Shown: positions 59,329-62,419 of the stretch, piece after piece
Numbering within the stretch: position 1 is the first letter of the stretch
Layout: each line of letters starts with the position of its first letter
Source: Natrarchaeobius oligotrophus
GTDB lineage: Archaea; Halobacteriota; Halobacteria; Halobacteriales; Natrialbaceae
Length of the DNA stretch: 64,000 nt
Direction of reading: 5' to 3'
NCBI RefSeq assembly: GCF_003841465.1
Contig: NZ_REFZ01000011.1
Coordinates: 62,001-126,000, forward strand
Notes under the pieces: generated by a model
Database searches by the model: none
Seen by the model: the letters and a program-made list of their open reading frames with translations, nothing else
Told to the model about the DNA's origin: nothing
Translations under genes and position numbers: made by a program

Positions 59329-60480
59329 TCACAGCGAGTCGGAGTCGATCCGGTCGACGATCACTCGAACCGAGGCGAACGCGAGTGCGCCGATCAGACA
59401 GTACAGCGCGAGCGACAGCCACGTCGTTGCCGTCGGGTGTCCGATCGCGAACTTCGCGACCGTGTTGGCCGGATGTTCGGGAAGCAGCGTGGAAACGACG
59501 AGCGCGCCGACGATGACGCTCGAGTACAGCAGTTGCGCCTGTCGCCTGTCCGGTGCCCACAGCGAGATCGCACCACCGGCGCCGACGACGAGCGTCGCAA
59601 GCGCCGTCACGAGCACGATCAGCGCCAGCGGGTGTGCGATCGCGGTTCCGTTGACCGCGAGCAACGCGAGCCACGCGACGGCCTGCAGGGGCGCGAGCGA
59701 CGCCGTCGCGACCAGCTTCGCGTCGACGACGTCGACGAACGAGAGCGGGGCGACACGGAGCAACTCGAGCGTGCCGCGCTGGCGCTCTTCGATCAGCGAG
59801 TCGACGACGATCGAGCCGCTGATGAACGCCGGCAGGAACAAAAGCAGCGGGAGCAAGACGACGTACGTGAACTCCGCGTACGGGCTGGCGTCGGTCCCGT
59901 CCGGAACCGAAAGCGGCGGCTGTTCGAGACGGTCGGCGTTCTCGACGCGTTCGACGTACTCGAGCGTCTCGAGTGCCTCCCGAAGCTGGACGACGAGCAG
60001 CGTGGTCTCGAGCCCGCCGTCGGGAGCGGTCACCCTGACGACGAGCCGCCCGTCGTCGTTCCTGTTTGCGTCGAGAACGGCGTCGTTCCGGCGGTTTTCG
60101 AACGCCCGATGGGCGTCGGCGCGGTCGTCGTAGATCGCCGCCTCGAGGCCGTCCTGTCGATCCACGACGGCGGCGAGGGGAGTCGCGTCGCTCCCGGTGA
60201 TCGCGACGCCGCTCTCGTGACCGTCGACGGTGCCGGGATCGTACATCGAGACGAGTCCGACGACGAGAAACGAGGAGAACGCCGCGATGAACAGCTGAAT
60301 CGCGATGGCCAGCATGATCGTCTTCTCCGATCGAAGCGAGCGCAGTTCGCGACGAGCGATCGCCCAGCGGGCGCGCCAGACGCCGCTCGGGTTCGGGTCG
60401 TCGGTCGCCTCGGGCGGGTTCGGTCCGCGCGGACCGGACGGTTCGTCCGACCGTCGCCACGAGTCCCGATCAGGTGACAA
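59329..60480 (-). CDS. ABC-2 type transporter permease
   Basis: A 383-residue exporter permease of the NatB/ABC-2 group. One TM helix (about 55-78: MLAIAIQLFIAAFSSFLVVG) is followed by an extracytoplasmic region of about 120 residues. Five or six TM helices follow (YVVLLPLLLFLPAFISGSIV onward), with the conserved ERQRGTLELLRVAPL segment that contacts the ATPase. The start is probably the TTG at 60480, inside the end of the upstream gene (11-bp overlap), so it is coupled to it. It works with the fused permease and ATPase below. Confidence 0.8.
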   Translation of the reverse strand: MSPDRDSWRRSDEPSGPRGPNPPEATDDPNPSGVWRARWAIARRELRSLRSEKTIMLAIAIQLFIAAFSSFLVVGLVSMYDPGTVDGHESGVAITGSDATPLAAVVDRQDGLEAAIYDDRADAHRAFENRRNDAVLDANRNDDGRLVVRVTAPDGGLETTLLVVQLREALETLEYVERVENADRLEQPPLSVPDGTDASPYAEFTYVVLLPLLLFLPAFISGSIVVDSLIEERQRGTLELLRVAPLSFVDVVDAKLVATASLAPLQAVAWLALLAVNGTAIAHPLALIVLVTALATLVVGAGGAISLWAPDRRQAQLLYSSVIVGALVVSTLLPEHPANTVAKFAIGHPTATTWLSLALYCLIGALAFASVRVIVDRIDSDSL

Positions 60481-62419
60481 GGACGATCACCCCGAGGTTG
60501 TAGAGCGCGTGGACGAGCGTCGCCACGACGAACGCGACCGCGTAGGGGATCGACCCTCGCCGCGCACCCGCGGCGGAGATCGTCGCCGTCACGACGTGGA
60601 GTGCGAGCGGCGCGAGAACGACGGCCGCCAGCACCGCGATCGAGACGCCGCCCGTGAGTTCGGGACCGAACGCCGCCGTACCCACCGCAAGCTCCGGAAG
60701 GCCGACGAGCTGACCGAGGTGGGTGAGCTTCTCGCCGACGAAAAAGCCAGCTCCGGAGAACGCCCCCAAGACGGCGGCCGTCCGTCCGGTGGCTTCGAAG
60801 CGGCCGCGTGCGAACCCGGCGTAGACGTGAACGCTCTTTGCGAACTCCTCGATCGCCGCCGCGACGACGAGCATGATCGGCAAAGCGACGACGTCGGGAA
60901 CGACGAACAGGAGCGAAACGGTGAGTAACTGCGCGGCGAAGACGAACGGGATACCGAGGATCGACAACACGAACGGACTCCAGTGGCCGCCAACGCGAGC
61001 CGAAATCGAGTCGATCTGGCTCGTGATCGCGTCGAGGATCTTCGCGGGGATCGGCTTCTGGGCGAACATATCCTCCTCGCGGTAGATTCCGATCCCGAGC
61101 AGGAAGAGAACGAACGCGCTGAGGTAGAACGTGGCCGTCGAAAAGAGGTACTCGCCCGCCGTTACCGGATCGCCCTGGAGATCCACGACGACGATCGTCA
61201 GGGGAGAGATCAGCGCGATCGGCGTCACCTCGGTGAAGATGGCGGGGACGAACGCGTACGTCGTGAGGAAGACGCTGATCGTCACCGTGACGAACGTCAG
61301 TTCCTTGAACGAGCGCGCGAGCATCGCGCCGACGAACGTCGAGCCGAGAAACACCAGCGCGATCGGGATCACCGCTGCGACGGAGAGGGGGCCACCCCCG
61401 ATCGCGACGGCGGTCGCGACGACGATCGCGACGAGTCCGAGAACGTACGGCAGCGTCTTTCCACCGACGATCTCGTACCGCGACGACGGGGAGACGAGCA
61501 AGAGTTCCCCCCGGCGCTTGATCCGCTCGTCCATGATCGTGCTGCCGTAGGCCTGCACGACGAAGTTCATCGGCACGATGAACAGAAACGCGAGCAACAG
61601 CGACTGAAAGGGAAACGGCGGCGAGAGCGTACTCGGCGTTCCGGTAGTCGTTCGTTCGTCGATCGTTCCGCCGACGTCGGGGACGCGAAGTTCGTCACCG
61701 TCTCGAGTTTCGTCGGTCGGTTCGGACGACCCGTCAGTCACGCCGTCCGAGTCGGCGGTCGACCCGTCAGTCATTCCATCCGAGTCGGCGGCCGCCCCGT
61801 CGTCCGGACTCGACTCCGTCGACGAGTCGTCCCTCGCACCGGAGTCGGTTCCGTCCGATTCCGCCGGACTGGTCGTCCCGTCCGGTCTGAGAGGATCGCG
61901 TTCCTGGTACGAGACGGTTACGAGCACCGGATAGGCGGCGACCTCGTCGTCGGCTTCGGCCATCCGGTTTTCGTTGTACGATTCGATCGCATCTCGAAAC
62001 GCGTCGAACGCCTGTTCGCCGTTCTCACCGACGTAACCCAGTTCCCCGTCGCGGGTGACGACGACGTCCACGTTCGAGTCCGTACCGTCACCGCTGATCT
62101 CGACGTCCTCGAGCGGTACCGCACGGAACCGATCGCTCTCCGCGACGACGTCCGCGTACGGGTCGTCCCCGTCGACGCCGACGACGTACAGTTCGTCGGC
62201 GAGCCCCAGGCCGTCGTCGGCGACCGACAGGCCGACCGCACCCACGACCAGCAGCATCGCGACCGCGACGAGGACAGTCTTCCGATCGACCGTTCCGGCG
62301 CTCCGGCTGACCTCCCAGCGGGCGATCCGTCCGATCCGTCGAAGCGAGTCGAGGCTCCTGCGGACGATTCTTTTCGTCCGCCGGCACTCCCGATCGACGG
62401 CCGACCGCTCGCCGCTCAC
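60470..62419 (-). CDS. ABC-2 permease fused to PrsW-type membrane protease
   Basis: A 649-residue protein. The first about 400 residues are an ABC-2 permease: one TM (VAVAMLLVVGAVGLSV), a long acidic Ser/Asp-rich extracellular region, then TM helices beginning LLLAFLFIVPMNFVVQ and the DERIKRRGELLLVSP ATPase contact. The C-terminal about 220 residues resemble PrsW-family intramembrane proteases, with AIEEFAKSVH (EExxK), GAGFFVGEKL (FxxxE) and VHALYNLG (HxxxN). The GTG at 62419 overlaps the ATPase stop (GTGA). The combination suggests regulated export or processing. Confidence 0.78.
   Translation of the reverse strand: MSGERSAVDRECRRTKRIVRRSLDSLRRIGRIARWEVSRSAGTVDRKTVLVAVAMLLVVGAVGLSVADDGLGLADELYVVGVDGDDPYADVVAESDRFRAVPLEDVEISGDGTDSNVDVVVTRDGELGYVGENGEQAFDAFRDAIESYNENRMAEADDEVAAYPVLVTVSYQERDPLRPDGTTSPAESDGTDSGARDDSSTESSPDDGAAADSDGMTDGSTADSDGVTDGSSEPTDETRDGDELRVPDVGGTIDERTTTGTPSTLSPPFPFQSLLLAFLFIVPMNFVVQAYGSTIMDERIKRRGELLLVSPSSRYEIVGGKTLPYVLGLVAIVVATAVAIGGGPLSVAAVIPIALVFLGSTFVGAMLARSFKELTFVTVTISVFLTTYAFVPAIFTEVTPIALISPLTIVVVDLQGDPVTAGEYLFSTATFYLSAFVLFLLGIGIYREEDMFAQKPIPAKILDAITSQIDSISARVGGHWSPFVLSILGIPFVFAAQLLTVSLLFVVPDVVALPIMLVVAAAIEEFAKSVHVYAGFARGRFEATGRTAAVLGAFSGAGFFVGEKLTHLGQLVGLPELAVGTAAFGPELTGGVSIAVLAAVVLAPLALHVVTATISAAGARRGSIPYAVAFVVATLVHALYNLGVIVLVT

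Follow-up and report, generated by a model that had tools for sequence, protein, structure and literature searches.

Intramembrane proteases of the PrsW and CPBP types and the APH-1 subunit of gamma-secretase have been placed in one published superfamily (PMC6588880 and PMC4602095, in the parts openly available), with APH-1 as a remote relative of PrsW and CPBP (PMC6588880, same part). According to the available part of the second study, PrsW also differs from CPBP by an additional active-site histidine in its penultimate helix (PMC4602095). HVO_0408 is one haloarchaeal stand-alone PrsW, named in a review of haloarchaeal membrane proteases whose accessible section mentions no ABC link and gives the function and targets of haloarchaeal PrsW as unknown (PMC9263693). 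Similarly, the accessible portion of a second such review mentions PrsW once, again with no link to ABC transport (PMC4343526). A related idea for another setting, PrsW as a possible export conduit for toxins, appears in the available text of a further study (PMC3482391).

On the transport side, the closest described systems are DrrAB/NatAB-like ABC-2 exporters and NF041647, an ABC permease/CPBP fusion (636 positions) of similar length to the protein reported here, which likewise carries a protease from the CPBP/PrsW/APH-1 superfamily at the C-terminus of an ABC-2 permease. Here, we describe an ABC-2 permease fused to a PrsW-type domain in a 64,000-nucleotide stretch of the Natrarchaeobius oligotrophus genome (contig NZ_REFZ01000011.1), hereafter the window. 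Permease-protease fusions were catalogued before as permease-CPBP (NF041647), and the PrsW version is a new variant. Among the open-access papers listed in literature searches we recognised none on an ABC permease/PrsW fusion, the subscription literature being mostly outside this coverage. Like DrrAB/NatAB-like exporters, the locus combines an ATPase carrying a DrrA C-terminal domain with ABC-2 permeases, of which the fused one has a predicted NosFY-like fold (Z of about 15-16 with NosY and ABCA1); unlike them, it has two unequal permeases, one with a protease domain. It shares EExxK, FxxxE, the penultimate-helix histidine and HxxxN/D with the PrsW family (PF13367; B. subtilis PrsW; HVO_0408). 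Unlike stand-alone PrsW, the protein is joined to an ABC-2 permease, and the window copy is too divergent for a direct Pfam match.

Results

Three overlapping genes encode an ATPase, the fusion and a second permease

The whole operon lies on the minus strand (Table 1), no strand having been named in a preliminary description of this DNA. That description had claimed two overlaps, one between the ATPase stop and the fusion's GTG start and one between the fusion's end and the next permease; both are present, at 4 and 11 bases, respectively. The motifs it had pointed out are also in place, as EEFAK (524-528), F559-FVG-E563 and H637-ALY-N641, and H608, within LALH, is a further motif residue absent from that account. 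Along the chain, the fusion consists of a first transmembrane helix (TM1, 46-68), an extracellular part (~75-270), TM2-6 (271-445) and the PrsW-type domain (457-648). The ATPase of the window is nearest to the drrA profile, which it matches with 256 bits versus a family cut-off of 312.

Table 1. Features of the fusion operon and of linked surface-protein genes
Feature	Position	Strand	Remarks
ABC ATPase, 317 aa, DrrA-like	63369-62416	minus	stop overlaps fusion GTG by 4 bases
ABC-2 permease/PrsW fusion gene	62419-60470	minus	single open frame, 649 aa, GTG start
Acidic linker, low confidence, extracellular part of fusion	61613..61927	minus	~residues 165-269
Predicted PrsW-type domain, residues 452-649	60470..61066	minus	E524 E525 K528, F559 F560 E563 K564, H608, H637 N641
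Permease 2 (unfused ABC-2 permease), 383 aa	60480-59329	minus	TTG start, 11 bases inside fusion end
Penicillin-amidase family protein, 829 aa	59267-56778	minus	downstream of operon; match E 5e-194
Secreted Ig-like protein loci of family f19	L189 10515-12359, L193 10578-12398, L196 10303-12111		

The N-terminal half has the predicted fold of an ABC-2 permease

In a Pfam search, residues 271-395 of the window protein matched ABC2_membrane_3 with 17.1 bits, against a cut-off of 31.6. Scanning 46 homologues singly (E<=0.001) detected ABC2_membrane_3 in 19 and ABC2_membrane_2 in 11 of them. The full-length model (pLDDT 78) aligned over residues 22-459 to the ABC-2 permeases ABCA1 (Z 16.0), NosY (Z 15.4) and ABCG5/8 (Z 15.2). 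Confidence was low (pLDDT <50) in the linker, at residues 165-167, 169-178 and 180-267, and non-halophile homologues of the fusion are mostly shorter overall. The model, read together with the positions of arginines, suggests eleven membrane helices and a C-terminus on the outer side, and would put the putative catalytic residues between the middle and the outer part of the membrane. Profile-profile comparison (hhalign) of the N-terminal part with permease 2 yielded an E of 2.9e-4 across a short ABC-2 signature, which suggests a distant relationship between the two permeases.

The C-terminal half is of the PrsW type rather than CPBP

The preliminary description had assigned the C-terminal half to PrsW. 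Profile support was lacking for the window protein taken alone, with no PrsW match up to E 10 in Pfam and no family match in NCBIfam, but emerged from its homologues and from profile-profile alignment. In a PF13367 search of 59 genomes of the class, the C-terminal ends of fusion homologues scored above the curated cut-off in 20 genomes (positions compared by eye); the fusion was the sole PrsW match in genome G011, and 58 of the 59 genomes contained a strong match of the stand-alone type. Four second-tier matches under the cut-off were found in addition (G083, G020, G017 and G091, the last not matched to the fusion position), and PrsW was detected in 5 of the 46 homologues scanned singly. Aligning residues 466-649 (108 rows) with 31 haloarchaeal PrsW frames by hhalign gave an E of 3.5e-9 and a probability of 95.7, with EExxK, FxxxE, the first histidine and HxxxN all in register. 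The same comparison with 30 haloarchaeal CPBP frames resulted in an E of 0.0084 and a probability of 4.7. CPBP (PF02517) matched neither the window protein nor any of the 46 homologues, and the motif is EExxK, not EExxxR; a CPBP identity was rejected.

A sequence search of the PDB with the profile returned nothing meaningful. Modelled alone, the C-terminal domain reached a pLDDT of 89.5 and a pTM of 0.83. Its best PDB alignments were APH-1 chains of gamma-secretase (Z 10.9, 10.4 and 10.1; 159 residues aligned at 4.6 A for the top match), followed by chains of multipass-translocon/BOS structures (Z 9.8 and 9.5) and, at Z 5.1, MmRce1. Foldseek found no PDB match at E<=0.001 with the full model or the C-terminal domain; as helical bundles also score easily, these structural matches agree with membership of the CPBP/PrsW/APH-1 superfamily but are no proof of it.

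The motif residues were followed through an alignment of 110 rows, comprising the window, 29 further loci and 80 named haloarchaeal loci (the best 80 of 209), some rows probably representing the same species from two collections. After two mis-parsed rows (L057, L093) had been dropped from the motif counts, E524, E525, K528, F559, F560, E563, K564, H608 and H637 were invariant in 108/108 parsed homologues, and N641 was kept in 107, with D in the remaining one. Invariance on this scale indicates that the residues are not there by chance. E524, E525 and K528 sit in a predicted helix at 509-537, F559 and E563 in one at 545-571, and H608 in the predicted penultimate helix (594-620), being kept in 43/43 rows of the alignment with non-halophile loci; HxxxN falls in the predicted last core helix. 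In the 20 non-halophile loci, which belong to other families of the phylum, the motif residues are retained except for one F559Y and one N641D; F560 is frequently L there. Taken together, residues 457-648 are, by profile and model, a predicted PrsW-type intramembrane protease domain. Both domain calls of the preliminary description are thereby borne out, through the ABC-2 fold, the PrsW profiles of the homologues and the conserved setting of the fusion in an ABC operon.

The structural matches also bear on another reading, in which the PrsW-like domain would be a non-catalytic scaffold that holds a partner membrane protein at the pump, its polar residues being structural. APH-1 is the scaffold of an aspartyl protease complex, not its protease, and is not known to carry an attached transporter. 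APH-1 and translocon/BOS chains outrank MmRce1 in the structural comparison, and conserved histidines are shared with APH-1 according to the available part of one study (PMC6588880). However, EExxK, FxxxE, H and HxxxN are kept from haloarchaea to other lineages of the phylum, a pattern characteristic of enzymes; in addition, the profile is near PrsW, and helical bundles readily give middling Z scores. We consider a scaffold role unlikely.

The fusion is widespread and probably old

A fusion homologue is present in 273 of the 392 genomes of the order, and none was found in the other 119; across the phylum, 147 of 294 genomes have one. Most matches span both halves, among the matches listed. With more than 100 homologues carrying the same joined protein, an assembly or joining error was rejected as the source of the fusion. 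The plasmid collection yielded one match, from Haladaptatus, annotated 'ABC transporter permease subunit'.

The named haloarchaeal loci are the best 80 of 209 from a scan of genome contigs, all from haloarchaea; the window and 45 of these 80 make up the 46 rows of alignment A1. The order ATPase, fusion, permease 2 on one strand occurs in 79 of these best 80 loci, and the ATPase/fusion overlap is exactly 4 bases in 53 of the 74 measured (L057, L093, L066, L091, L111 and, having no ATPase, L071 were left out of this count). Halorussus salinisoli carries two copies of the fusion, one in a complete operon (L063) and another elsewhere, at L071 (5980-7914), where neither an ATPase nor permease 2 lies within 6 kb.

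In the 20 non-halophile loci (L182-L201), permease 2 follows the fusion in all 20, whereas the ATPase is divergent and upstream of the fusion in 17 and was not found in 3. As the ATPase is collinear in haloarchaea, a rearrangement of the genes probably took place when this group arose or close to that point. In a quick tree with long branches and no outgroup, the haloarchaeal rows grouped together with a support of 99, and identity distances of the N- and C-terminal halves correlated with r 0.96 over 903 pairs. This grouping and correlation fit a single ancient fusion inherited vertically. The fusion is real, old and well conserved; its function, discussed below, is what we infer.

No conserved substrate gene was found beside the haloarchaeal operon

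Across the 80 haloarchaeal loci (best 80 of 209), no conserved substrate or bacteriocin gene and no conserved regulator was found beside the operon among the clusters listed. In the same clusters, non-core open reading frames recurred in at most 37 of these 80 loci, a maximum that excludes clusters positioned like antisense or alternative frames of core genes; the largest cluster of the survey merges several core genes. A penicillin-amidase match lies near the operon in 9 of the best 80 loci, making it a local neighbour outside the core system. In the window, the N-terminus of this protein (59267-56778) is what we take to be twin-arginine-like. In seven of the nine loci it is accompanied by the small membrane protein that comes next in the window.

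A different neighbourhood was seen in family f19, where the operon is followed by a secreted protein of ~600 aa that has a membrane helix at its C-terminus and gives Ig-like matches (DUF11/BatD/TRAP-beta; Table 1); a small membrane protein also follows the operon. The secreted protein adjoins the operon in 16/16 genomes with a close form (E below 1e-190; places compared), and also occurs unlinked, in genomes without a detected fusion. In three linked sequences the C-terminal helix appeared specially conserved. Yet among 16 linked and 13 unlinked sequences of this type, the proportion of 21-residue windows that equalled or exceeded the helix in conservation was 0.47 and 0.38, respectively, so the transmembrane end was rejected as evidence that this surface protein is a substrate. 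Given its unlinked occurrence and the ordinary conservation of its membrane end, we treat the protein as a lead only. Two of its homologues (L214, L216) lie near repeated genes that are presumably archaellin-like.

With no substrate gene next to the operon, substrates are probably encoded elsewhere, and there may be several.

An apparently separate fusion in NF041647

NF041647 has a CPBP rather than a PrsW protease half, and its permease half matches permease 2 of the present operon, not the fused permease. No genome out of 148 contained an NF041647 match above the curated cut-off, and the window protein likewise gave no match; membership of this family was rejected. Since its permease half corresponds to permease 2, NF041647 apparently represents a distinct fusion, made on the partner subunit with another protease family, and permease-protease fusions seem to have emerged independently on the two subunits. 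Stand-alone CPBP proteins of ~270-320 aa (L203-L208, mostly from family f18) are, among the matches listed, better matches to the NF041647 protease half than any haloarchaeal protein; f18 genomes have no fusion, among those listed in the phylum search.

Discussion

The mechanism that we propose starts from the observed fusion, the conservation of its catalytic residues, its gene set and its two predicted folds. The ATPase, the fusion and permease 2 would make up a heterodimeric ABC-2 exporter in which the fusion supplies one half-permease and carries, at its C-terminus, a glutamate/histidine intramembrane protease of the PrsW type. ATP hydrolysis would move or lift a membrane-anchored substrate, for which a leader-bearing peptide, a lipoprotein or a single-span protein are candidates, through the pump or alongside it, and the fused protease would cut the anchor within the membrane, coupling release to export. 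We put the chances of such an exporter, one that cuts its membrane-anchored substrate while moving it, at about even. Against coupled export stand the fusion at L071, which has no partners within 6 kb, and the absence of a conserved substrate gene beside the haloarchaeal operons. The best structural match, APH-1, is a scaffold, Foldseek gave the C-terminal domain no significant PDB match, and the window protein itself has no PrsW profile match, all of which also count against it.

In a bolder version, no free compound would be exported at all, and ATP would pull membrane-anchored proteins laterally into the PrsW site. Such an ABC-driven protease machine would amount to an ATP-powered sheddase or extractor, phylum-wide and older than the haloarchaeal split; we regard this reading as doubtful.

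Coupled export also has to be weighed against a regulatory or defensive module, in which the exporter would expel a compound that is toxic or harms the envelope, with the protease acting on a regulator once the pump is engaged. The model here is PrsW in the Bacillus anti-sigma cascade; to our knowledge, archaea have no anti-sigma pathway. The ATPase is nearest to a drug-resistance type profile (drrA), although the match, at 256 bits, falls short of the 312 bits set for the family, and the lack of a detected homologue in 119 of the 392 order genomes is as expected of an accessory trait. In B. subtilis, PrsW works in antimicrobial-peptide resistance, as stated in the available part of the source (PMC4602095). 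However, no conserved regulator neighbours the operon, and a fusion present in half of the phylum's sampled genomes, with halves that diverge in step (r 0.96), suggests a standing function. We find this module quite unlikely. That the protease half works alone, independent of the pump's cargo and fused only through the shared membrane, is very unlikely: the L071 fusion lacks an adjacent ATPase and permease 2 and stand-alone PrsW also occurs in 58/59 genomes, but the fusion is seldom broken, most matches cover both halves (among the matches listed), and the halves diverge together.

Overall, the fusion links a sequence-defined intramembrane protease with an energy source and a transport path in one polypeptide, and it is conserved across the phylum. 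The presence of the joined protein across the phylum makes a cargo-cutting pump a testable idea, and Haloferax species among the operon carriers (loci L062, L067, L069; carriers include H. larsenii, H. mucosum and H. marinum) bring it into a genus with established genetics. The fused pump would offer a direct handle on which membrane proteins a PrsW-type protease cuts.
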